Assembly (NCBI RefSeq): GCF_012926505.1 | Contig: NZ_JABBNT010000007.1 | Span: 1 to 64,000, forward strand | Source of the DNA: Pacificispira spongiicola | Lineage (GTDB): Bacteria; Pseudomonadota; Alphaproteobacteria; UBA8366; Aestuariispiraceae | Direction: 5' to 3' | Length of the DNA: 64,000 bases | In this document: one piece after another, positions 50,393-64,000 of the stretch | How positions within the stretch are numbered: the stretch's first letter is position 1 | Layout of the letters: each line of letters opens with the position of its first letter | Made by a program: the position numbers and the translations under genes | Notes under the pieces: generated by a model | Database searches by the model: none | The model's input: only the letters and a program-made list of their open reading frames with translations | Told to the model about the DNA's origin: nothing

Positions 50393-50420
50393 TTGACGTT
50401 TACGTAAACGTAAATACTAT
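50393..50420 (+). promoter_or_regulatory. Promoter of the leucine-catabolism operon
   Basis: TTGACG (50393-50398) and TACTAT (50415-50420) spaced by 16 bases, 27 bases before the MerR gene start. The spacer is filled by a palindromic operator (annotated separately), the arrangement expected for a MerR-family regulator controlling its own operon. Confidence 0.75.
50396..50411. promoter_or_regulatory. 16-bp perfect palindrome, probable LiuR operator
   Basis: ACGTTTACGTAAACGT reads the same on both strands; a further half-site TAAA extends it. It overlaps the -35 and spacer. From memory, the LiuR motif described for proteobacterial leucine-utilisation genes is similar in composition (TTTACG/CGTAAA halves). 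Confidence 0.8.
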
Positions 50421-50446: not shown

Positions 50447-50848
50447 ATGACGGATAAGGCGGTCAGTACGATTGCCGAACTGGCGCGGGACTTCGGCGTC
50501 ACTGCGCGGACCATCCGCTTTTATGAGGCGGAGGGCATGATCTCCCCCGAACGGCAGGGCAGCCAGCGCCTGTATCACCCGCGCGACCGGGTGCGCTTGA
50601 AACTCATTCTGCGCGGCAAGCGGCTGGGCTTCTCGCTCGCCGAGATTCGCGAAATCATCGATCTCTACGACTCGGCGCCCGGGGAACGCGGGCAGCTCGA
50701 CTTCTTCCTGGACATGATCGAAAAACGGCGTGTCGACCTGGAACAGAAACGCCGCGACATCGACCTGACCCTGTCGGAACTGGCGGAGGTCGAACGGAAT
50801 TGCCGCAACCGGCTGTCCGAATTGGCGAAGGGGAGGGAACAGGCATGA
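50447..50848 (+). CDS. liuR: MerR-family regulator, LiuR-like
   Basis: 133 residues. N-terminal winged HTH with IAELARDFGVTARTIRFYEA and the wing GMISPERQGSQRLYHPRDR, then a dimerisation helix (about 80-125). No cysteines are in the positions of metal sensors, so the ligand is probably organic, for example an acyl-CoA intermediate. It heads the operon of isovaleryl-CoA dehydrogenase and methylcrotonyl-CoA carboxylase genes, the place LiuR occupies in other proteobacteria. Overlaps the next gene as ATGA. Confidence 0.85.
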   Translation: MTDKAVSTIAELARDFGVTARTIRFYEAEGMISPERQGSQRLYHPRDRVRLKLILRGKRLGFSLAEIREIIDLYDSAPGERGQLDFFLDMIEKRRVDLEQKRRDIDLTLSELAEVERNCRNRLSELAKGREQA

Positions 50849-51791: not shown

Positions 51792-52964
51792 ATGATCCCC
51801 AATTCCTATCCCGTGCTGGATTTCGATCTCGGCGAGACCGCCGAACTGATGAAGGAAAGCGTCGCCGGATTCTCCGCCGACGAGATCGCGCCGCGTGCGG
51901 CGGAAATCGACCGCACCGATCAGTTCCCGATGGACCTGTGGAAGAAGATGGGCGACATGGGGCTCCTCGGCATTACCGTGGAGGAGGAATATGGCGGCGC
52001 CAATATGGGCTATCTGGAACACTGCATCGCGATGCAGGAAATCAGCCGTGCCTCCGCCTCCGTCGGTCTCAGTTACGGTGCGCATTCGAATCTGTGCGTG
52101 AACCAGATCCGCCGAAATGGAAACGCGGATCAGAAGCAGCGTTATCTGCCGAAACTGATTTCCGGCGATCATGTCGGGGCGCTGGCCATGTCGGAACCGG
52201 GCGCCGGGTCGGATGTCGTGTCCATGCGCCTGCGCGCGGACAAGAAGGGTGACCGCTACGTCCTGAACGGCAACAAGATGTGGATCACCAACGGCCCGGA
52301 TGCCGATGTCATGGTGATCTATGCCAAGACCGATATGGATGCCGGGTCGAAAGGCATCACCGCCTTTCTGGTGGAAAAGAGTTTCAAAGGCTTCTCCGTC
52401 GCGCAGAAGCTGGACAAGCTGGGCATGCGCGGATCCCATACTGGGGAGCTGGTCTTCGAGGATTGCGAGGTCCCGGAAGAAAACGTCCTGGGGGAGGTCG
52501 GCAAGGGCGTCCGCGTCCTGATGAGCGGTCTGGATTACGAACGCGCGGTGCTGGCCGCCGGTCCGATCGGTATCATGGACGCCTGCATGGATGTCGTGAT
52601 CCCCTATATCCACGAACGCAAACAGTTCGGGCAGGCGATCGGCGAATTCCAACTGATGCAGGGCAAGATTGCCGACATGTATACGACGATGAATGCCTGC
52701 AAAGCCTATGTCTACGCGGTCGCGAAAGCCTGCGACCGGGGACAGACGACGCGCAAGGACGCGGCGGGCGCGATTCTGTATGCCGGGGAAAAGGCCACTT
52801 GGATGGCGCTGGAGGCGATCCAGATTCTGGGCGGTATGGGCTATATCAACGAAAGCCCGACGGGCCGCCTGCTGCGCGACGCGAAACTCTATGAAATCGG
52901 CGCGGGCACGTCCGAAATCCGCCGCATGCTGATCGGCCGCGAACTCTTCGCCGAAACGGCGTAA
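51792..52964 (+). CDS. ivd: Isovaleryl-CoA dehydrogenase
   Basis: FAD enzyme that oxidises isovaleryl-CoA to 3-methylcrotonyl-CoA, third step of leucine breakdown. 390 residues. Acyl-CoA dehydrogenase motifs [20 protein letters not shown] and [17 protein letters not shown]; the catalytic Glu lies at residue 250 in [16 protein letters not shown], the position specific to isovaleryl-CoA dehydrogenases. The usual C-terminal Glu is replaced by Gly in [11 protein letters not shown]. This residue swap makes the substrate call strong. Donates electrons to ETF. Confidence 0.95.
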
Positions 52965-52991: not shown

Positions 52992-54182
52992 ATGACCACG
53001 CAAGACCCCATCGTCATCGTCGGTGCCGCGCGGACCCCCATGGGCGGGTTCCAAGGCGACCTGAAGGAAATGAACGCATCCCAACTGGGCGCGGCAGCGA
53101 TCAAGGAAGCGCTGTCCCGCGCGGGCGTCGCACCGGCGGATGTCGACGAGTTGATCTTCGGCAACGTCCTCCCCGCCGGTCAGGGGCAGGCCCCGGCCCG
53201 TCAGGCCAGCAAGGGCGCGGGCATCCCGGATGCCACGGGCTGCACGACCATCAACAAAATGTGCGGGTCCGGCATGAAGGCGACGATGCTGGCAACGGAT
53301 CTGCTGACCGCCGGGACGAACGCGATCATGGTCGCGGGCGGCATGGAAAGCATGACCAATGCCCCCTATCTGCTGCCCAAGGCGCGCGGTGGCATGCGCC
53401 TGGGTCATGGTCAGGTGCTGGATCACATGTTCCTGGACGGGCTGGAAGACGCCTATGACAAGGGCCGCCTGATGGGCACCTTCGCCGAAGAAACGGCGAC
53501 GCATTTCCAGTTTACGCGCGAGGCCCAGGATGCTTTCGCTATAGAAAGCCTGAACCGCGCGAAGAAGGCGCAGGATGACGGCACTTTCGAAAGCGAGATC
53601 GTGCCGCTCACGGTCCAGACCCGGAAGGGGGAAGTTACTGTGGCGCTGGACGAACAGCCGCGCACGGCGAACCCGGACAAAATTCCGACCCTGAAACCGG
53701 CCTTCGCGAAGGACGGGACGGTGACGCCCGCGAATTCGTCGTCCATCTCCGATGGGGCGGCGGCCCTGGTGCTGATGCGTCGGTCCGAAGCGGAAAAGCG
53801 CGGCCTGACGCCGATTGCGGAAATCGTGTCCCACGCGACCCATGCCCAGGCCCCCGCCTGGTTCACGACCGCGCCGGTCGATGCGATCCGCAAATGCCTG
53901 GACAAGGCCGGGTGGTCGAAGGACGCGGTCGACCTGTATGAAGTCAACGAGGCCTTTGCCGTCGTCGCCATGGCGGCGATGCGGGAATTGGACCTGCCGC
54001 ATGATAAGGTGAATGTGCATGGCGGGGCCTGTGCCCTGGGCCATCCGATCGGCGCATCGGGTGCGCGCATCTTGGTGACGCTTCTGAACGCGTTGAAGAA
54101 ATACGATCTTGAAACCGGCGTTGCGTCCTTGTGCATCGGCGGTGGAGAGGCTACGGCGATGGCGGTGAAACGTCTTCAGTAA
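52992..54182 (+). CDS. Acetyl-CoA C-acyltransferase (thiolase)
   Basis: 396 residues. Nucleophilic Cys91 in INKMCGSGMKATML; the C-terminal GGACALGHPIGASGARILVT with the active-site His; and CIGGGEATAMAV with the second Cys. Degradative or biosynthetic direction cannot be told. In the leucine pathway it would cleave acetoacetyl-CoA made after HMG-CoA lyase to two acetyl-CoA. 27 bases after ivd. Confidence 0.93.
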   Translation: MTTQDPIVIVGAARTPMGGFQGDLKEMNASQLGAAAIKEALSRAGVAPADVDELIFGNVLPAGQGQAPARQASKGAGIPDATGCTTINKMCGSGMKATMLATDLLTAGTNAIMVAGGMESMTNAPYLLPKARGGMRLGHGQVLDHMFLDGLEDAYDKGRLMGTFAEETATHFQFTREAQDAFAIESLNRAKKAQDDGTFESEIVPLTVQTRKGEVTVALDEQPRTANPDKIPTLKPAFAKDGTVTPANSSSISDGAAALVLMRRSEAEKRGLTPIAEIVSHATHAQAPAWFTTAPVDAIRKCLDKAGWSKDAVDLYEVNEAFAVVAMAAMRELDLPHDKVNVHGGACALGHPIGASGARILVTLLNALKKYDLETGVASLCIGGGEATAMAVKRLQ

Positions 54183-54200: not shown

Positions 54201-54863
54201 ATGCCGACCATTCTGATTACCGGGGCCAGCCGTGGTATCGGTCGCCGTCTGGCGGAGTTATACAGCGCCGGCGGCTGGGAGGTGATTTCGGCTTGCCGGA
54301 ACCCGGCGGGCTGCGATCCGGTCGGCGAACCACTCGCGCTGGATGTCGGCGATGCGGGTTCCATCGCGGCGGCGGCGAAAGCTCTGTCCGGTCGATCCAT
54401 CGATGTTCTGTGGAACAATGCGGGCATCTATATCGACAAGGGGCAGGCGCTCAAAGACTTGCGTGCGGAAGACTGGCTGGAAAGTTTCCGCATCAACACG
54501 ATCGCGCCGATCATGCTATGCCGGGCCTTGCTGGAAAACGTCGCGGCGTCGGGATTGCGCAAACTGGCCTTCACGACCAGCAAGATGGGGTCGGTCGCGC
54601 TGAATTCCGGCGGGGCCTATGAATACCGGTCGTCGAAAGCGGCGCTGAACATGGCGGTGTCCAGTCTGGCGCAGGAATTGGCACCGCGCGGTATCCGCAC
54701 GGTCGTCCTGCATCCCGGTTGGGTGCGCACCGATATGGGCGGCGCGGGCGCGGATATCGACACGACGCAATCCGCGGCCGGTATGAAATCCGTGGTCGAC
54801 GGTCTTGCCGCCGGTCAAACCGGACAGTTTTTCAATTACGATGGAAAGGAGCTTCCCTGGTGA
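54201..54863 (+). CDS. Short-chain dehydrogenase (C-factor-like SDR)
   Basis: 220 residues from the ATG at 54201 (GAGGAG upstream; TTG at 54195 is not needed). NAD(P) motif TGASRGIGRRLAELY, then NNAGIY, and the catalytic Ser-Tyr-Lys with TTSKMGSV and YEYRSSKAALNM. Similar in layout to small C-signal-type SDRs. Substrate unknown. Its TGA overlaps the carbonic anhydrase GTG. Confidence 0.88.
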   Translation: MPTILITGASRGIGRRLAELYSAGGWEVISACRNPAGCDPVGEPLALDVGDAGSIAAAAKALSGRSIDVLWNNAGIYIDKGQALKDLRAEDWLESFRINTIAPIMLCRALLENVAASGLRKLAFTTSKMGSVALNSGGAYEYRSSKAALNMAVSSLAQELAPRGIRTVVLHPGWVRTDMGGAGADIDTTQSAAGMKSVVDGLAAGQTGQFFNYDGKELPW

Positions 54864-55510
54864 ATCCGATCAACCGTCTTCTCGCAGGCTATCGCAGCTA
54901 TCGTGCCCTCTATCACGAAAAACGCGGGGATATGACCCGGCGTCTGGCGGAAGAAGGGCAAAAGCCGAAGATCATGGTTATCGCCTGTTCGGACAGCCGC
55001 GTCGATCCGGCGATCCTGTTCAACGCCGATCCGGGGGAAATCTTCGTCGTTCGTAACGTGGCGGCGTTGGTGCCGCCTTACAGCCCGGATTCGTCGCATC
55101 ACGGCACCTCGTCGGCAATCGAATTCGCGGTTAAAGACCTGGGCGTTCAGGAAATCATCGTCCTGGGTCATTACAAATGCGGCGGGGTCGCCGCCATGCG
55201 GTCGATCCATGCCGGGAACCAACTGGAAGATCGGGAATTCATCGGGCCCTGGATGGCGCTGGCGGCGGAAGCGTGTTCCATGCATGGGGCGGACGATCCG
55301 GAGGCCGCGGCGGCGGTGGAAATGGCGACGATCAAGACGTCGATCCGCAATTTGAAGACCTTCCCCTGGGTTCAGAAGGGGATCGATAACGGGACGCTGC
55401 GCGTGCACGGCTGGTGGTTCGATATCAATTCGGGGAACCTGTTGGCCCACGATCCGCGCACCGGACAGTTCAGCATCGTGGATAGCATACCGGACCTCAG
55501 CGCAAAATAA
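54860..55510 (+). CDS. Beta-class carbonic anhydrase
   Basis: Interconverts CO2 and bicarbonate. 216 residues from the GTG at 54860, which overlaps the SDR stop as GTGA. Zinc ligands and the Asp-Arg dyad are visible in [12 protein letters not shown], and His and the second Cys in [25 protein letters not shown] and [13 protein letters not shown] complete the family pattern. In this operon it may feed bicarbonate to methylcrotonyl-CoA carboxylase. Confidence 0.94.
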
Positions 55511-55548
55511 TCCGGACAAATAGAGCCGGGCATCTGGGAGAAACGACC

Positions 55549-56682
55549 ATGATCCTTACCGAAGAACAGACGATGATCCGCGATATGGCGCGTCAGTTCG
55601 CGGCCGAACGCCTGACCCCGAATGCGGAGGAGTGGGACCGAGAGGCTCGCTTCCCCAAGGAGGCGATTGCGGAGATGGGCGCGCTGGGGCTTCTCGGCAT
55701 GCTCGTCCCGCCGGATTATGACGGGGCGGGAACGGATACAGTCTCCTATGCCATGGCGTTGGAGGAAATCTCCGCCGGGGACGGGGCGGTCGGCGCGATC
55801 ATGAGCGTCCATAACTCCGTCGGCTGCATGCCGATCCATCGTTTCGGCACGGAAGAGCAGAAGCAGGAATATCTGCGTCCCCTCGCCAGGGGGGAGACGA
55901 TCGGCTGTTTCTGTCTGACCGAACCGCAGGCAGGATCCGATGCTTCCGCCCTGAAAACCAAGGCGGTGCAGGCCGGCAATAAATGGGTTCTGGACGGGGC
56001 GAAGCAGTTCATCACCAATGGGTCGACGGCGGGGCTGGCCATCGTTTTCGCGGTGACCGATCCGGATGCGGGAAAACGCGGGATCACGGCCTTCCTGGTG
56101 CCGACGGACCGTCCCGGTTACATCGTCGAACGGATCGAAAAGAAGATGGGGCTCAATGCGTCCGACACCTGCGCGATCCGCTTGGAAGGGCTGGAACTGG
56201 AACCCGAACTGATGTTGGGGCAGCTGGGCGAAGGTTATAAAATCGCCCTGTCGAATCTGGAAGGCGGGCGTATCGGGATCGGCGCGCAGGCGCTTGGTAT
56301 CGCACAGGCGGCGCTGAACTATGCCGTTGCTTATGCCAAGGACCGCGTTTCCATGGGCCAACCGATCATCCAGCATCAGGCCGTCGGCTTCCGCCTTGCG
56401 GATTGCGCGACGAAGCTGGAGGCCGCGCGTCAATTGATCCTGCATGCAGCGGCCCTGAAGGATGCGGGACAGCCCTGCCTGACGGAGGCGTCGATGGCGA
56501 AACTGTTCGCGACGGAAACCGCCGAACAGGTTGTGTCCGACGCGCTGCAGACCTTGGGCGGCAACGGCTATATGCGCGATTACCCGGTGGAGCGCATGGC
56601 CCGCGACGTCCGCGTCACGAAAATCTATGAAGGGACCAGCGACATTCAGCGCATGGTCATTTCACGCATGTTGGCCGCCTAA
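55549..56682 (+). CDS. Acyl-CoA dehydrogenase (short/branched-chain type)
   Basis: 377 residues. [40 protein letters not shown] and the C-terminal catalytic Glu361 in [18 protein letters not shown], the canonical position, unlike the ivd gene in the same operon. Could act on isobutyryl-CoA, 2-methylbutyryl-CoA or butyryl-CoA; not resolvable by eye. Two acyl-CoA dehydrogenases in one operon suggest a role in more than one branched-chain amino acid. Confidence 0.92.
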
Positions 56683-56710
56683 GGGAGGCGGAACGAGAGG
56701 GGGCGGTCCC

Positions 56711-57451
56711 ATGGGAAACCTGACGGACAAGATCGTATTGGTCACCCATGTCACGGAATTCGTCGGCGCCGCTGCCGTCGAATCCTGCCTGGAGGAAGGT
56801 GCGACGGTTCTGGCCCAGGATCCCAGCTTCGCCGATATGGCGGCGCGCCACACATTCGAACAAGCCTATCGCGGGGCGATCGGACTGCATGACGAAGACC
56901 CGGACCGCCTGATCGGCAGCATCGTTTCGGCGCAAGGGCGTTTGGACGGCCTTGTCGCCAATGACGGCTTCCCGGCCATCCGGGCGAAAGTCGAAGACGC
57001 CGACCCGCAGGATATGCGCGACGGGTTGGAAGCCATGGTGGTGCAGCCCTTCCGCCTGATCGGGGCCGCCGTGCGTCAGATGAAAAAGCAAGGCGGCGGG
57101 CGGGTCGTCGTCGCATCCTCCGCCGTGCCGTTCCGCGGCCTGTCGAATTACGGCATGTATGTCACCGGACGTGGGGCGCAGAACGCAATGGTCCTGTCCC
57201 TGGCGCGGGAATTGGCGGGTCAGGCGATTTCCGTGAACGCAGTTGCGCCGAATTTCGTTGAAAACCCGTCCTATTTTTCGGAAGCCCTGCTGTCCGACGA
57301 CGCCGCACGGAACAAGATCCTGTCGCAAATCCCGATGGGCCGCTTCGGCAAGGGGCGGGAGGTGTCGGACCTGATCGCCTTCCTGTTGTCGGATAAGGCC
57401 GGGTTCATCACCGGTACCGTCGTGCCCGTCGCCGGCGGCTGGGCCTCGTAA
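56711..57451 (+). CDS. Halohydrin dehalogenase-like SDR
   Basis: 246 residues from the ATG at 56711. SDR fold, but both halohydrin dehalogenase (HheA-G) hallmarks are exact: T-x4-[FY]-x-G at T12-F17-G19 (THVTEFVG) in place of the Gly-rich NAD motif, and S-x12-Y-x3-R at S137-Y150-R154 (YVTGR), with Arg replacing the SDR Lys. Further stretches recalled from HheC align: LVANDGFPA, PFRLIGAAVRQMKK, APNFVENPSYF. Such enzymes close vicinal haloalcohols to epoxides and open epoxides with anions, without NAD. Native substrate here is unknown; a non-halogen epoxide role is possible. Confidence 0.85.
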   Translation: MGNLTDKIVLVTHVTEFVGAAAVESCLEEGATVLAQDPSFADMAARHTFEQAYRGAIGLHDEDPDRLIGSIVSAQGRLDGLVANDGFPAIRAKVEDADPQDMRDGLEAMVVQPFRLIGAAVRQMKKQGGGRVVVASSAVPFRGLSNYGMYVTGRGAQNAMVLSLARELAGQAISVNAVAPNFVENPSYFSEALLSDDAARNKILSQIPMGRFGKGREVSDLIAFLLSDKAGFITGTVVPVAGGWAS

Positions 57452-57460
57452 GGACACGCC

Positions 57461-58063
57461 ATGACCGATCCGATCGATTTCTACTTCGAATTTTCCTCCC
57501 CTTACGGCTATTTCGCGTCTGAACGGATCGCGGCGCTGGCGGACAAGCATGATCGCGCGGTGTCTTGGAAGCCGTTCTTGCTGGGGGCCGCCTTCAAACG
57601 GGAAGGGACGCAGTCGCTTGTGTCCTATCCGCTGAAAGGTCCGTATTCGAAGCGCGATATCGAACGGACCGCCGGATATCTGGGCTTGCCTTTCGTCTGG
57701 CCGCCAGGCTTTCCGATCCTGACGGTCCATGCGGCGCGCGCGACGTTATGGACACAGGAAAACGCGCCCGACCGGGCGGTCGACCTGATCCATGCCTTGT
57801 ACCGACGTCTCTTTGCGGACGGTGTGGATATCGGTCATGCGGGGGATGTCGTCGCGGTCGCGGAAGATGTCGGCCTTGATCCCATCGCCGTGGAATCGGG
57901 CATGAAATCCGATGATATCAAGGCCCGCTTGCGAACCGAAACGGACGCGGCACTGGATCGCGGTGTTTTCGGGTCGCCCTTCTTCATCGTCGATGAGGAG
58001 CGGTTCTGGGGCGCCGACCGGATGGACATGCTGGACGCCTGGCTGACGCGGGGCGGATGGTGA
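57461..58063 (+). CDS. 2-hydroxychromene-2-carboxylate isomerase-like (DsbA/kappa-GST fold)
   Basis: 200 residues. DsbA-like thioredoxin fold of the HCCA isomerase/kappa-class GST type; N-terminal FYFEFSSPYGYFASERIAAL with the glutathione-binding Ser, and C-terminal GVFGSPFFIVDEERFWGADR. Uses glutathione as cofactor in known members. 9 bases after the dehalogenase-like gene, so the pair may act on the same electrophile (epoxide opening with glutathione is an attractive guess). Confidence 0.88.
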   Translation: MTDPIDFYFEFSSPYGYFASERIAALADKHDRAVSWKPFLLGAAFKREGTQSLVSYPLKGPYSKRDIERTAGYLGLPFVWPPGFPILTVHAARATLWTQENAPDRAVDLIHALYRRLFADGVDIGHAGDVVAVAEDVGLDPIAVESGMKSDDIKARLRTETDAALDRGVFGSPFFIVDEERFWGADRMDMLDAWLTRGGW

Positions 58064-59022
58064 TGGCGGCGATGGAAACCGGCGTTTCCTTTGTCGTGCC
58101 GGTCTATAACAAGGCCGATTGGCTGCCCGCCGTTCTCGACAGAATCGCGGCGCAACGGGGGAACTTCGACCGGCAATATGTGTTCGTCGATGACGGATCG
58201 ACGGACGGGTCATTGGACATCCTGCGCGACAAGACGGCCGGCTGGGACAATCTGGTGATCGAATCCCAGACCAATGCCGGGTCTGCCGCCGCGACCAATC
58301 GGGGCATCGCGCTGGCGACCATGCCCTATATCAAATTCGTCGATGCGGACGATCTGTTGCATGCGGATGCGACGCGGGTTTTGCTGGATGCGCTGGCCGG
58401 CGATGAAAAGGCCTGCCTTGCCTTCGGCGGCGTTCAAACCTTTTCCGACGCGGCGACCCTCGACCTGGAGGGCGAGATCGGAACGCCGTCGGTGCGGCGC
58501 CTGGCGCGGCCCCTGCGGCAGGCGATTTCTCGGTCGCTGTTCAATCCGACACAGTTCCTGGCCCGCACCGACTGCCTGCGCGCCGTCGGCGGGTGCGACG
58601 AACGGGTCGTCTTCAGTCAGGAATATGCCCTGACCATGCGCCTTGCCCGGCAATGGGATTTCCTGGCGCTGGATGCGACCGTCGCCTTCCTGCCGCAGGA
58701 AGTCGGGTCGCGCCTGTCGAACAATCAAGGCCGTCAGTTGCAACGCGTGACCCGCGCCGTTCAGTACTTCCTGGAAGACTATCCCGATACGCCCTGGTCC
58801 TTGCGCCAGTATATTGCGCGGCGCATGGCGTATCGCGCCTGGAAATATCATCGCCGGGCGAACAAGGCCTTTTGGCCGACCAGTCCTGTATTCTGGCGTC
58901 AGGCCCGGGCATGGCTGCCCATCCTGGGGGGGCATGCAGCCTTTATCGAACGGTGCGGGCGGGTCTTCGAAACCGCCGACCGGCGCGCCGTACGCGGAAC
59001 CGAAGAGAAAGTTTTGGGATGA
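58063..59022 (+). CDS. Family 2 glycosyltransferase
   Basis: 319 residues. GT-A start SFVVPVYNKADWLPAVLDRI with VFVDDGSTDGSLDILRDKTA, then the DxD-like FVDADDLLHADATR; RVVFSQEYALTMRLARQWDF in the second half. No membrane anchor. The ATG at 58063 overlaps the preceding stop (TGATG); ATG 58057 also possible. Transfers a sugar to an unknown acceptor. First of three genes that look out of place in a leucine operon. Confidence 0.88.
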   Translation: MAAMETGVSFVVPVYNKADWLPAVLDRIAAQRGNFDRQYVFVDDGSTDGSLDILRDKTAGWDNLVIESQTNAGSAAATNRGIALATMPYIKFVDADDLLHADATRVLLDALAGDEKACLAFGGVQTFSDAATLDLEGEIGTPSVRRLARPLRQAISRSLFNPTQFLARTDCLRAVGGCDERVVFSQEYALTMRLARQWDFLALDATVAFLPQEVGSRLSNNQGRQLQRVTRAVQYFLEDYPDTPWSLRQYIARRMAYRAWKYHRRANKAFWPTSPVFWRQARAWLPILGGHAAFIERCGRVFETADRRAVRGTEEKVLG

Positions 59023-59807
59023 GTGAGCAGACCTACAATCCGGGATATGACCACGGATTCTATGCCGATCTTGAAAATACGGCCTTGCCGTCGGCGCGCC
59101 GGATCGTGCCGATCCTGAAGACATGGTTTCCGATCGGCAGCGCCGTCGACGCCGGATGCGGCGACGGATCCTGGCTATCCGTGATTTCGGAACTGGGGGC
59201 GGAAACCGTTCTGGGACTCGACGGCCCCTGGGTGGACGAAACCCAACTTAAAATCCCAAAGGACCGGTTCCGACGTTGCCGCATCGACGAGAAAATCGCC
59301 GTCGAACCGGGGGAGAGCTTCGATCTCGCCATCAGCCTGGAGGTCGCGGAACACCTGCCGGACAGCCGGGCGGGCAGCTTTGTCGCGGATTTGTGTGCGC
59401 TGGCGCCGGTCGTTCTGTTTTCCGCCGCCATTCCGGGACAGGGCGGGCATCATCACGTCAATGAACAATGGCCCGCCTATTGGGCGGACCTGTTCGCGGC
59501 ACAGGGCTACACGCCGGTCGATACGCTGCGGCTGACGGTCTGGAACGATCCCACCGTTTGCTGGTGGTACAAGCAGAACCTGATGGTCTTCGCGTCCGAA
59601 AAGGCGCTGGCCGACAATCCGGCCCTGAAGGCGGAAGCGGGCAAGTCCATTTCACCGCCCGTGCCGCTGGTCCATCCCGAAGTTTTCGAACAGGTACAGC
59701 GTCAGGCCAACCCGTCTTTCGGGCGGTGGTTGAAACAGGGGCGTAAGGCATGGTCCCGGTCTGTGGAGAAACGCCGGGCGAAACGCCGGGCGAAACGGGG
59801 ACGCTGA
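59019..59807 (+). CDS. SAM-dependent class I methyltransferase
   Basis: 262 residues; ATG at 59019 overlaps the glycosyltransferase stop (ATGA). Motif I SAVDAGCGDGSWLSVIS (about 42-57), then LGLDGPWVDE and the post-motif LAISLEVAEHLPD. GQGGHHHVNEQWPAYWADLF is reminiscent of sugar- or cell-surface-modifying methyltransferases. The C-terminal tail is a run of KRRA repeats encoded by a 12-bp tandem repeat (59768-59797), giving it a strongly basic end. Confidence 0.85.
   Translation: MSEQTYNPGYDHGFYADLENTALPSARRIVPILKTWFPIGSAVDAGCGDGSWLSVISELGAETVLGLDGPWVDETQLKIPKDRFRRCRIDEKIAVEPGESFDLAISLEVAEHLPDSRAGSFVADLCALAPVVLFSAAIPGQGGHHHVNEQWPAYWADLFAAQGYTPVDTLRLTVWNDPTVCWWYKQNLMVFASEKALADNPALKAEAGKSISPPVPLVHPEVFEQVQRQANPSFGRWLKQGRKAWSRSVEKRRAKRRAKRGR
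59768..59797 (+). repeat. 12-bp tandem repeat at the 3' end of the methyltransferase gene
   Basis: GAAACGCCGGGC occurs perfectly twice and half a third time. It encodes the basic KRRA tail, so copy-number slippage would stay in frame. Confidence 0.8.
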
Positions 59808-59813
59808 CCGGAT

Positions 59814-61709
59814 ATGTGCGGGATCGCGGGAACAGTCGATACGACGCGCGGACGGGGAGCGGCGGCGCTGGCCGGTATCGCGGAGGCGATGGCGGAGACG
59901 ATGCTGCATCGCGGCCCCGACGATTCCGGTGTCTGGACGGCGGAACAGGTCGGTGTCGCCTTGAGCTTCCGGCGCCTCGCGATCCAGGATTTGAGTGCCG
60001 ACGGCGCACAACCGATGCGGTCCCAGGACGACCGTTTTGCCATCGTCTTCAATGGTGAAATCTATAATTTCCTGGAATTGCGTCGGCAACTGGAGTCAGG
60101 CCGCACCTGGCGCGGCCATTCGGATACCGAAGTCATGCTGGCGGCCTTCGATGCCTGGGGTATCGAAGGGGCGCTGGACCGTTTCGACGGCATGTTCGCC
60201 TTTGCCCTCTACGACGCGAAGGCACGCACGCTGACTCTCGCCCGCGATCGAATGGGGGAAAAGCCGCTCTATTTCGGCTGGGCGGGGAAAAGCTTCGTCT
60301 TCGGGTCCGAATTGAAAGCCATCGCGTCGCATCCGGATTTCACCCCGGAAATCGATCCGCGCGCCGTTGATGCGATGATGCGCTATTCCTACATTCCCGC
60401 GCCGGTATCGATTTATCGCGGCATCGAAAAGCTGCCGCCCGGCGGAACGCTCACCCTCTCCCTGGAGAGTGGCGAGACGGTGCGCGGTCAATATTGGGAC
60501 CCGGTGTCGGAGGCGGAGAACGCCCCCACCTTCGAAGGCGACGAAGCGGCGGCGGCACGGGAGTTGGAACGTCTGCTGATGCGGTCCGTATCGCGCCGCA
60601 TGGTCGCTGACGTGCCGCTTGGCGCGTTTTTGTCCGGCGGGATCGACAGCGCGACCGTCGTGTCCCTGATGCAGAGTGTCGCCGCCAAGCCGGTGCGCAG
60701 TTTCACCATCGGCTTTACCGACCCGCGTTTCGACGAGGCGCCGCAGGCCCGCGCCATCGCCCAACATCTGGGCACCGATCATACGGAAGTCACGGTATCC
60801 CCCGCCGACAGTCTGGCGATGGTGGAACGGATGCCCTTCGTCTATGACGAACCCTTTGCCGATGTCAGCCAGTTGCCGACGCTGCTGTTGTCCCATCTGG
60901 CGCGACAGCAGGTGACGACGGCGCTGACCGGCGACGGCGGGGACGAGTTGTTCGGCGGCTATCCGCGTTACCGCAAGGCCGTTGAGCAATGGGAGCGAGG
61001 CCGCCCGTTTTCCCGCAGCTTGTTGAACCTTATTCCCTTCGGGCCGTTGAATGTCATTTCCTCCGGCGTCGGCAAACCGGGGCGGTTCGGGGACAAGTTG
61101 TACCGCAAGCTGTCGGATCGATCGAAGCCGTCGATTGAGCTTCTGTATGAAGGCTATATGTCCCGCTGGCGGGTATTCGAACGCCCGGCAGGCGACCCGG
61201 CGGTCGGCTATTTCGTCGAAGGCACGCGCCGCCCGCACAGCGACGACGATCTGCTGCGCTTGATGTTCTGCGATGCCGTGACCTATCTGCCCGACGACCT
61301 GCTGGTGAAAGTAGACCGCGCCAGCATGGCGGCGTCGCTGGAAACCCGCGCGCCCTTGCTGAACCACGATATCGTGCGTTTCGCCTGGGGCCTGCCCAGC
61401 CGTTTCAAGATCCGCGACGGGAAGGGGAAGCAGGTGCTGCGTGCCGTGCTCGACCGCCATGTGCCGCGCAGTCTGATGGACCGGCCTAAACAAGGTTTCG
61501 AACCGCCGCTTGCCGATTGGCTGCGCGGCCCGTTGCGCGATTGGGCGCAATCGCTGATCGCATCGGACCGTTTGGAAGACGGCGGGTTCCTGGATCCCGA
61601 ACCGATCCGCGCCGTCTGGGAAGAACATTTAAAAGGCCAGAGGAACTGGCATTTCGAACTATGGAACGTGCTGATGCTGCAAAGCTGGCGCGAAGCCTGG
61701 AAACTGTGA
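59814..61709 (+). CDS. asnB: Asparagine synthetase (glutamine-hydrolysing)-type amidotransferase
   Basis: 631 residues. N-terminal class II glutaminase with the nucleophilic Cys2 in [13 protein letters not shown] and the RRLAIQDLS and FNGEIYNF motifs; the synthetase domain has the PP-loop [10 protein letters not shown] at about residue 274 and [17 protein letters not shown]. In polysaccharide or O-antigen clusters such proteins amidate a sugar carboxyl or aminoacyl group rather than make asparagine; the glycosyltransferase and methyltransferase before it favour that reading. 6 bases after the methyltransferase gene. Confidence 0.88.
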
Positions 61710-61719
61710 GGAAGCGCCG

Positions 61720-63327
61720 ATGAATACGCTGACAACGACCCACGACCCGCGCAGTCCGGAAGCCGCCGACAACCGCGCGGCAATGGCAGCCCTGGTTGCC
61801 GAACTGAAATCCCGCCTGGAACAGGTGAAGCTGGGCGGCGGCGACAAGGCGCGGGAACGCCACCTGTCGCGCGGAAAGCTGTTGCCGCGCGAACGCGTGC
61901 GGACCTTGCTGGATCCGGGCTCGCCGTTTCTGGAGCTGTCGCAGCTTGCCGCCTATGACATGTATGGCGATACGATCGCCTCCGCCGGGGTGATCTGCGG
62001 GATCGGGCGCGTATCGGGCCAGGAATGCATGATCGTCGCGAACGACGCGACGGTGAAGGGCGGCACCTATTACCCGATGACGGTAAAAAAGCATGTGCGG
62101 GCCCAAGAAATCGCCTGGCAAAACCGGCTGCCCTGCATCTATTTGGTCGATTCCGGTGGGGCGAACCTGCCCAACCAGGATGAAGTGTTTCCGGACCGCG
62201 ACCATTTCGGGCGCATCTTTTATCATCAGGCCAATATGTCCGCAGACGGGATCGCGCAGATCGCCGTCGTCATGGGCTCCTGCACGGCGGGTGGTGCCTA
62301 TGTCCCGGCCATGTCCGACGAAAGCGTCATCGTGCGCAATCAAGGCACGATCTTCCTGGGCGGCCCGCCGTTGGTGAAGGCCGCGACGGGTGAAGTCGTG
62401 TCGGCGGAAGATCTGGGCGGGGCGGATGTCCATTCCCGCATTTCCGGCGTGACGGATCACATGGCGGAAAACGACACCCATGCCCTGTCCATCGCGCGCG
62501 GTATTGTCGCCAACTTGAACAGGATCAAGCCGACCAGCCTGAAGGTCCGCGAGCCGGTGGAGCCGATGCTGAACCCCGACGACCTCTACGGCGTCGTGTC
62601 CGCGGACCTGCGCAAGCCCTATGATGTGCGTGAGGTCATCGGGCGGATCGTCGATGGGTCCGAATTCGACGAGTTCAAGAAGCTCTACGGCACGACGCTG
62701 GTCTGCGGTTTCGCCCATCTGTGGGGCTATCCGGTCGGTATCGTCGCCAATAACGGCATTCTTTTTTCGGAATCGGCGCAGAAGGGCGCGCATTTCGTGG
62801 AACTGTGTTCCCAACGCGGCATTCCGCTGATCTTCCTGCAGAACATCACCGGCTTCATGGTCGGGTCGAAATACGAACAGGGTGGGATCGCCAAGGACGG
62901 GGCGAAACTGGTCACGGCGGTGGCCACGACATCCGTCCCGAAATTCACCGTGATCATCGGCGGCAGTTATGGGGCCGGAAACTACGGCATGTGCGGGCGG
63001 GCCTATTCGCCGCGCTTCCTGTGGATGTGGCCGAACGCCCGCATTTCCGTCATGGGCGGGGAGCAGGCGGCAAACGTCCTTGCCACCGTGAAGGAAGACA
63101 ATATGGAAAAGGCCGGGCAGTCCTGGACGGCGGAAGAACGGGAGGCCTTCATGGCCCCGGTTCGACAGCAATACGAGGATCAGGGCAATCCCTATTACGC
63201 TTCCGCGCGGCTGTGGGATGACGGGATCATCGATCCGAAGGATACGCGCATGGTTCTCGGCCTCGCCCTGTCCGCCAGTCAGAACGCCCCGATCGAGCCG
63301 ACGAAGTTCGGCGTCTTCCGGATGTGA
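61720..63327 (+). CDS. mccB: Methylcrotonyl-CoA carboxylase beta subunit
   Basis: Carboxyltransferase subunit (LiuB) that makes 3-methylglutaconyl-CoA from 3-methylcrotonyl-CoA. 535 residues, the MccB length and slightly longer than pcc[41 protein letters not shown] and [20 protein letters not shown] distinguish it from Pcc[21 protein letters not shown] and [17 protein letters not shown] are in the C-terminal half. The biotin subunit mccA is expected beyond the window. Confidence 0.95.
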
Positions 63328-63338
63328 GGAGGGATAGG

Positions 63339-64000
63339 ATGGCAAAGCTGGAACTCGTGAAGGACGGCGCGGTCGCCCGCGTGCGCCTCACCAATCCCGA
63401 TCTGCACAATGCCTTCGATGACGGGTTGATCGCGGATCTGACCCAGGCGTTTGGCAATGCGGGGGGCGACGATGCGATCCGCGTCGTGGTGCTGGAAGCG
63501 GAGGGCAAGAGCTTTTCCGCCGGGGCCGACCTGAACTGGATGAAGCGCGTCGCGACCTATGGGCTGGATGAGAATATAGAGGACGCCCGGGGCCTCGCCG
63601 GGATGTTGAAGACGATCAATTTCCTGCCCAAGCCGGTCATCGGGCGGGTACAGGGGGCGGCCTTCGGCGGCGGCGTCGGGCTGGTCGCCTGCTGCGATAT
63701 CGCCATCGGCACGCCGCGCGCCAGCTTCTCCCTGTCGGAAGTGAAGCTTGGCCTGATCCCTTCGGCGATCAGCCCCTATGTCGTCGCGGCCATCGGACAA
63801 CGCGCGGCCCGGCGCTATTTCACCACGGGCGAACGCTTCGACGCCGCAACGGCGCACAAGCTGGGCCTGCTGCATGACGTGGTGGAGGAAGCAGTCCTGG
63901 ACGACACCGTCGAGGGTTTGATCAACACGATCCTGGGCGTCGGGCCGAAAGCCGCTGCCGCCGCGAAGGATCTGGTCTTTGCCGTCGACCGCCCGCTCAC
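63339..64000 (+). CDS. liuC: Methylglutaconyl-CoA hydratase (enoyl-CoA hydratase family), 5' part
   Basis: The first 220 codons; the gene runs off the window. Crotonase fold: VVVLEAEGKSFSAGADLNWM with the oxyanion-hole alanine, and GRVQGAAFGGGVGLVACCDI, then SLSEVKLGLIPSAISPYVV. The ADLNWMKR string is typical of AUH/LiuC-type methylglutaconyl-CoA hydratases, which hydrate 3-methylglutaconyl-CoA to HMG-CoA. Eleven bases after mccB with GGAGGG upstream. Confidence 0.93.
   Translation, partial: MAKLELVKDGAVARVRLTNPDLHNAFDDGLIADLTQAFGNAGGDDAIRVVVLEAEGKSFSAGADLNWMKRVATYGLDENIEDARGLAGMLKTINFLPKPVIGRVQGAAFGGGVGLVACCDIAIGTPRASFSLSEVKLGLIPSAISPYVVAAIGQRAARRYFTTGERFDAATAHKLGLLHDVVEEAVLDDTVEGLINTILGVGPKAAAAAKDLVFAVDRPL

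Follow-up and report, generated by a model that had tools for sequence, protein, structure and literature searches.

The window analysed here is a stretch of 64,000 nucleotides from Pacificispira spongiicola (positions 1 to 64,000 of contig NZ_JABBNT010000007.1). From position 50447 its genes run in a single direction in the order merR, two hotdog-type genes, ivd, thiolase, SDR, carbonic anhydrase, a second acyl-CoA dehydrogenase (ACAD2) and a gene for a protein of the halohydrin dehalogenase (HHDH) family. These are followed by a dsbA-like gene, a GT2 glycosyltransferase gene, a methyltransferase gene, asnB, mccB and an enoyl-CoA hydratase-like gene, and past the window end by biotin-carboxylase-like and then HMG-CoA-lyase-like genes. 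The hotdog-type, asnB, hydratase, biotin-carboxylase and lyase genes were named from the sequence and lay outside the Pfam run on the operon neighbours.

The first gene (50447-50848, + strand) encodes a MerR-family regulator with Pfam MerR_1 and MerR-DNA-bind matches, which also heads the liu genes in relatives. In Rhodospirillum rubrum, LiuR is the MerR protein described for the liu cluster, together with an ILV box (PMC7238569), and by analogy the regulator in the window is a candidate LiuR. On the same strand follow ivd (liuA; 51792-52964), for an isovaleryl-CoA dehydrogenase-type protein with Pfam acyl-CoA dehydrogenase domains, an acetyl-CoA acetyltransferase/thiolase gene identified from family-library matches (52992-54182), a gene for a classical SDR oxidoreductase, SDRb (54201-54863; Pfam adh_short, cofactor loop TGASRGIG), which falls outside the HHDH clade described below, a carbonic anhydrase gene (54860-55510; Pfam Pro_CA) and ACAD2 (55549-56682). 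The substrate name given to ivd rests on the first-pass annotation and the operon context. Among 14 genomes of the window's family, ivd gave one match in each at E<=1e-150, and ACAD2 was present in 13 at E<=1e-90. Downstream of the HHDH gene lie the DsbA-like gene (57461-58063, +; Pfam DSBA) and a further block within the operon, comprising the GT2 glycosyltransferase, methyltransferase and asparagine-synthase-like genes (58057-61709, +), which was not called in the liu operons of three relatives (G001, G003 and G005). The carboxyltransferase subunit gene at 61720-63327 (+; Pfam Carboxyl_trans) holds a conserved operon position and is a candidate for methylcrotonyl-CoA carboxylase beta (mccB/liuB). 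The enoyl-CoA hydratase-like gene, a candidate liuC known from its gene call and the conserved order, runs on the + strand from 63339 to 64000 and extends to 64121.

This neighbourhood, with merR, ivd and mccB, is a liu operon, and the leucine-degradation setting first proposed for the HHDH gene therefore stands. Its supposed place next to ivd and mccB was correct as to the operon and not as to direct adjacency, as four genes intervene on each side. The R. rubrum cluster rru_A1940-A1948 likewise combines an ILV box, ivd (LiuA), a thiolase, an SDR, a DSBA protein and LiuBCDE (PMC7238569); unlike for the operon in the window, the section on that cluster mentions no HHDH. The carbonic anhydrase may perhaps supply bicarbonate to methylcrotonyl-CoA carboxylase; a plant mitochondrial beta-carbonic anhydrase has been linked to branched-chain catabolism (PMC13103436).

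The HHDH gene starts 28 bases after ACAD2 and ends 9 bases before the dsbA-like gene, all on one strand. A consensus scan of both strands between 50250 and 64000 gave a single sigma-70-like promoter match, TTGACG-16-TACTAT at 50393-50420 (+ strand, 9 of 12 positions). Since 3.4 such matches were expected by chance, the argument for this site lies in its position over a palindrome, not in its score. The palindrome, ACGTTTACGTAAACGT (50396-50411), is a candidate LiuR operator of the ILV-box type, by analogy with R. rubrum. An exact copy of ACGTTNACGTNAACGT occurs at one site in the whole 4.2 Mb genome; at two mismatches there are 10 sites, against a control level of 8. In exact or slightly changed form it precedes merR in the window as well as at 10 of the 11 other aligned family loci, and was missing at the remaining one (L120) within the 160 bases taken upstream. 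An excess of terminator-like stems over shuffled sequence (20 versus 11.7, sd 4.0) counts against continuous transcription, though the + strand from 54823 to 57946, spanning ACAD2 and the HHDH gene, was free of them. The HHDH gene is likely to be co-transcribed with the liu genes, in keeping with its earlier assignment to this transcription unit, and the lone promoter-like site overlapping a LiuR-type palindrome makes its induction alongside the leucine genes likely.

Placement in the halohydrin dehalogenase family

The frame at 56711-57451 (+ strand) is unbroken and translates to 246 residues. HHDHs are defined by the motifs T-x4-F/Y-x-G and S-x12-Y-x3-R (PMC4989007). Both are present in the translation and the alignment at the residues originally named, the first as THVTEFVG at residues 12-19 (T12, F17, G19) and the second as S137, Y150 and R154. 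The reported loss of the glycine-rich NAD loop and of the catalytic Lys was likewise borne out: the classical SDR loop TGxxxGxG is replaced by THVTEFVG, and the classical YxxxK reads Y150xxxR154.

A maximum-likelihood tree was built from 73 aligned sequences, made up of 41 rows for the window protein and its homologues (38 loci), three HHDHs from the PDB and 29 SDRs, so that the HHDH side comprised 44 rows and covered subtypes A and C, with B and D-G absent; the window protein is accordingly given no subtype letter. Short sequences (L138, L153, L154), loci at which the homologue was not called (L130, L150) and two loci taken to be from the same genomes as L118 and L125 (L002 and L004) were excluded. 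The window protein, 6a41, HheA and HheC shared a clade against the 29 SDRs with support of 100/99. A position of the window protein among NAD-dependent SDRs, the outcome named beforehand in the first-pass annotation as refuting, did not occur. The tree program flagged a long SDR row as joining the HHDH branch. Both motifs occurred together in 34 of the 44 HHDH-clade rows and in none of the 29 SDR rows, which indicates that the match in the window protein is not due to chance. Of the ten HHDH-clade rows without both motifs, three have Gln in place of Arg together with a non-aromatic motif 1. Thr is replaced by Ser in two rows and by Ile in one, Phe is replaced by Trp in two, and the Tyr column reads Pro in the last two.

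Individual alignment columns separated the two groups in the same way. Column 13 is Gly in 29/29 SDRs and in 1/44 HHDH rows, and His in the window protein. Column 17 is Phe, Tyr or Trp in 41/44 HHDH rows and Gly in 28/29 SDRs; column 154 is Arg in 41/44 HHDH rows, including the window protein, and Lys in 28/29 SDRs; column 181 is Asn in 41/44 HHDH rows and Gly in 29/29 SDRs. Tyr at column 188 (43/44) and Phe or Tyr at column 189 (44/44) were found in no SDR. The HHDH rows are also about seven residues shorter than the SDRs after the third strand, a stretch in which SDRs hold the adenine. Residues of the type expected in a nucleophile pocket and the shortened adenine region are thus visible in the alignment.

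A phmmer search against solved structures gave 533 matches, and among the best 60 the top one was 6a41 (230 bits), followed by HheA (4z9f, 134 bits), HheA2 (1zmo, 133 bits), HheC (104 bits), the best FabG (92 bits) and HheB (82 bits). Two structures whose names say no more than SDR, 7b73 (108 bits) and 8xxb (94 bits), rank among the HHDHs above FabG. An activity for 6a41 is indicated by its PDB title ('Dehalogenation enzyme', 2019), and a search of the open-licence literature found no paper on it as a dehalogenase. It carries both motifs in the alignment with the window protein, with which it is 46% identical over 241 residues, and is near-identical to the copy in genome G397 (locus L128), which belongs to another family; there transport-system genes follow, not liu genes. 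HheA and HheA2 align to the window protein across nearly the full length and score less than 60% of the value for 6a41, and HheA has a long branch in another part of the clade. With HheC (1pwx and variants) the window protein has the Ser-Tyr-Arg triad and the pocket plan in common. HheC has a C-terminal extension (PMC4989007), while the window protein stops at residue 246, just past the aligned part.

An AlphaFold2 monomer model built from a 32-row alignment reached a pLDDT of 89.9 and superseded an earlier model with a pLDDT of 78. Its best fold match was again 6a41 (Z 31.3, rmsd 2.4). Below this, FabG and HheC chains were intermixed (Z 28.5-29.9), as they had been with the earlier model. As the top FabG (Z 29.9) follows 6a41 so closely, the fold by itself is uninformative on chemistry, and fold comparison was dropped as a means of telling HHDHs from SDRs.

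This near-equality of fold matches would also fit a divergent NAD(P)-dependent SDR that has lost its typical motifs, as would the Pfam matches, which are to SDR families only, and the finding of no HHDH model and no curated cut-off reached among the best 25 of 194 NCBIfam families. The missing glycine loop, the Arg in place of Lys and the tree position outside the sampled SDRs argue against such a protein and make it scarcely credible. The motifs, the tree and the closest solved relative together support the family membership originally proposed. The window protein is a further member of the already known HHDH family, with an activity predicted by homology, and the sequence evidence for a putative cofactor-free enzyme of HHDH type is strong.

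Distribution within the family and beyond

The arrangement ACAD2-HHDH-dsbA was found in five genomes from two genera (G000, G002, G004, G007 and G012), the last four of which retain the gene order of the window. An HHDH-level match (at least 240 bits) was present in six of the 14 family genomes, and the other eight had SDR-level matches only, below 100 bits. Seven family genomes keep the liu genes with a site that lacks the HHDH gene, and in none of them was an HHDH-level match found genome-wide. In five of these (G001, G003, G005, G006 and G009) the dsbA-like gene lies directly after ACAD2 and starts 23-41 bases from it, so the HHDH gene cannot fit there; in the other two (G011 and G008) a carbonic anhydrase gene separates ACAD2 from the dsbA-like gene. 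The dsbA-like gene of G001, missed by the codon-score gene caller, was located by tblastn 38 bases after ACAD2. The same caller called no HHDH in L130 and L150 and left L166 and L167 (G010) nearly uncalled. As for the two remaining genomes, G013 has an HHDH at another locus (L122) and lacks ACAD2 at E<=1e-90, and G010, with no HHDH-level match, has ACAD2 and the dsbA-like gene on separate contigs. The DsbA-like gene was considered as a handler of epoxides made by the HHDH and was dropped, as it is present in liu clusters without an HHDH.

When mapped on a tree built from IVD, MccB and ACAD2, the occurrence of an HHDH gene in the operon requires a minimum of two changes, for example one insertion and two losses, or two insertions; the shared insertion point favours the first. 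The ratio dN/dS was 0.06 between two copies from one genus (L117 and L118), and for the window copy it was 0.16 against L117, 0.25 against L118 and 0.36 against L119. The gene is under purifying selection.

HHDHs had been described as rare. Homologues were found at E<=1e-40 in 41 of 385 sampled alphaproteobacterial genomes, which does not bear this out for the class. With five more at E<=1e-30 (G004, G007, G012, G013 and G037) there were 46 genomes with a homologue; G028, with a partial match of 31%, was set aside. The loci of 39 genomes besides that of the window were read, leaving out G075, G208, G265, G300, G305 and G320. Counting the window, the HHDH gene lies in a liu operon in five of 40 genomes, all from one family; among the 39 others it does so in four (G002, G004, G007 and G012) and lies outside in 35. 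Five contigs (L125, L150, L152, L153 and L154) end near the HHDH gene, so that the context there is incomplete. Matches to MccB in L131 (33%), IVD in L147 (30%) and ACAD2 in L149 (32%) were judged to be paralogues.

Outside the liu operons no pathway common to the HHDH neighbours was seen when 37 of 47 neighbours were run against Pfam, the other ten either being very short or closely resembling proteins already included. Possible partners there include COQ9 and a deformylase, a sulfatase and NIPSNAP, XdhC/CoxE-type genes, a sulfate permease, glutathione synthetase, an amidohydrolase and a 4HBT thioesterase. In three families (L121:7579-7902, L122:4127-4459 and L139:4538-4858) the HHDH gene is preceded by a NIPSNAP gene, which directly adjoins it in L122 and L139 and lies one gene further up in L121. 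Tandem HHDH-like pairs occur in three genomes of 1.6-2.3 Mb from one family (L149:9357-10837, L151:9147-10640 and L152:8777-10249), and in each pair the catalytic Arg of one copy is replaced by Gln and its motif 1 is non-aromatic. Two further homologues (L136:9288-10019 and L137:4576-5310) have Trp for Phe/Tyr in motif 1.

The closest homologues from outside the family come from two Kiloniellales MAGs (loci L001 and L003), whose HHDHs share 72-73% identity with the window protein and whose HHDH genes adjoin DUF2177 and TetR genes. The contig of L001 is without ivd and ACAD2, both of which that genome has elsewhere; the contig of L003 is without ACAD2, which is also found elsewhere in its genome, and no ivd match was found there at E<=1e-120. 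The same-family copies L119 and L120 are only 55-57% identical to the window HHDH, and the closer Kiloniellales copies suggest transfer. Together with the patchy presence in the family, these observations would suit a horizontally acquired gene that encodes HHDH activity and sits passively in an operon that is well expressed, without having been selected for any tie to leucine conditions. The common insertion point in both genera and the kept gene order point instead to one old event held by selection, and such a passive insert is considered rather unlikely.

Likely role of the enzyme

The explanation that we favour, with somewhat better than even confidence, is a cofactor-independent HHDH that was inserted into the liu operon, is probably co-transcribed under LiuR-type control and most likely has an accessory role. 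By homology, Ser137 would hold the hydroxyl of a vicinal haloalcohol and Tyr150, acidified by Arg154, would remove its proton. The halide would exit into a pocket at the position of the SDR NAD site, lined by the Thr12-Phe17-Gly19 loop and a Pro180-Asn181-Phe182 loop. The predicted product is an epoxide, and the reaction would also proceed in reverse with small anions. The gene would have been inserted between ACAD2 and the dsbA-like gene in an ancestor of part of the family, and its transcription from the LiuR-type promoter would probably bring about induction with leucine or isovalerate breakdown. The enzyme would most likely clear natural haloalcohols or epoxides met when feeding on the same organic matter, and would not be required for leucine degradation. 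The retention of the gene by two clades at its place in the operon, with purifying selection acting on it, speaks against an accessory role, as a mere accessory need not persist there in this manner.

The same retention at an identical site across five genomes and two genera, the purifying selection and the candidate LiuR control would be expected of a recruited pathway enzyme whose place in the operon is functional, feeding a branched C4-C5 haloalcohol or epoxide into isovaleryl-CoA or methylcrotonyl-CoA breakdown. No oxygenase or halogenase family was found among the 11 neighbouring operon proteins run against Pfam, which counts against this, as do the 35 of 39 further genomes with the HHDH gene outside a liu operon (five contigs end nearby) and the seven family genomes that retain the operon genes without it. 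Such recruitment is decidedly unlikely. A step in branched-chain acyl metabolism had been put forward in the first-pass annotation; because sister genomes keep the operon without the HHDH gene and no such theme recurs among its neighbours elsewhere, this step is unsupported. The enzyme could take a chemical part in leucine degradation, but the comparison lends this no support. Still more doubtful is the reading in which the HHDH was drafted into a LiuR-controlled leucine/isovalerate regulon for the salvage of branched C5 halohydrins or epoxides, formed for example by the addition of natural hypohalous acid to prenyl or methylcrotonyl double bonds. If it were true, it would give an HHDH a native, regulated pathway role beyond pollutant degradation.

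The HHDH family is already known, and what is unusual here is the location in a liu operon. The A-, B- and C-type HHDHs were first found in haloalcohol-degrading isolates (PMC4989007). One recent paper presumes that HHDHs serve in the detoxification and breakdown of natural haloalcohols (PMC11536340), and according to another the compounds tested are probably not the natural substrates of HheC (PMC11976700). In the open-licence literature no paper on the genomic context of HHDHs was found, a search for HHDH with leucine gave no mention of an HHDH among the matches listed, and one for HHDH with Alphaproteobacteria gave only papers on other subjects, as judged by title. The alphaproteobacterial homologues also offer enzymes for use in biocatalysis. 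What HHDHs do natively is more assumed than known, and a copy with a predictable inducer offers a test of when the enzyme is wanted.
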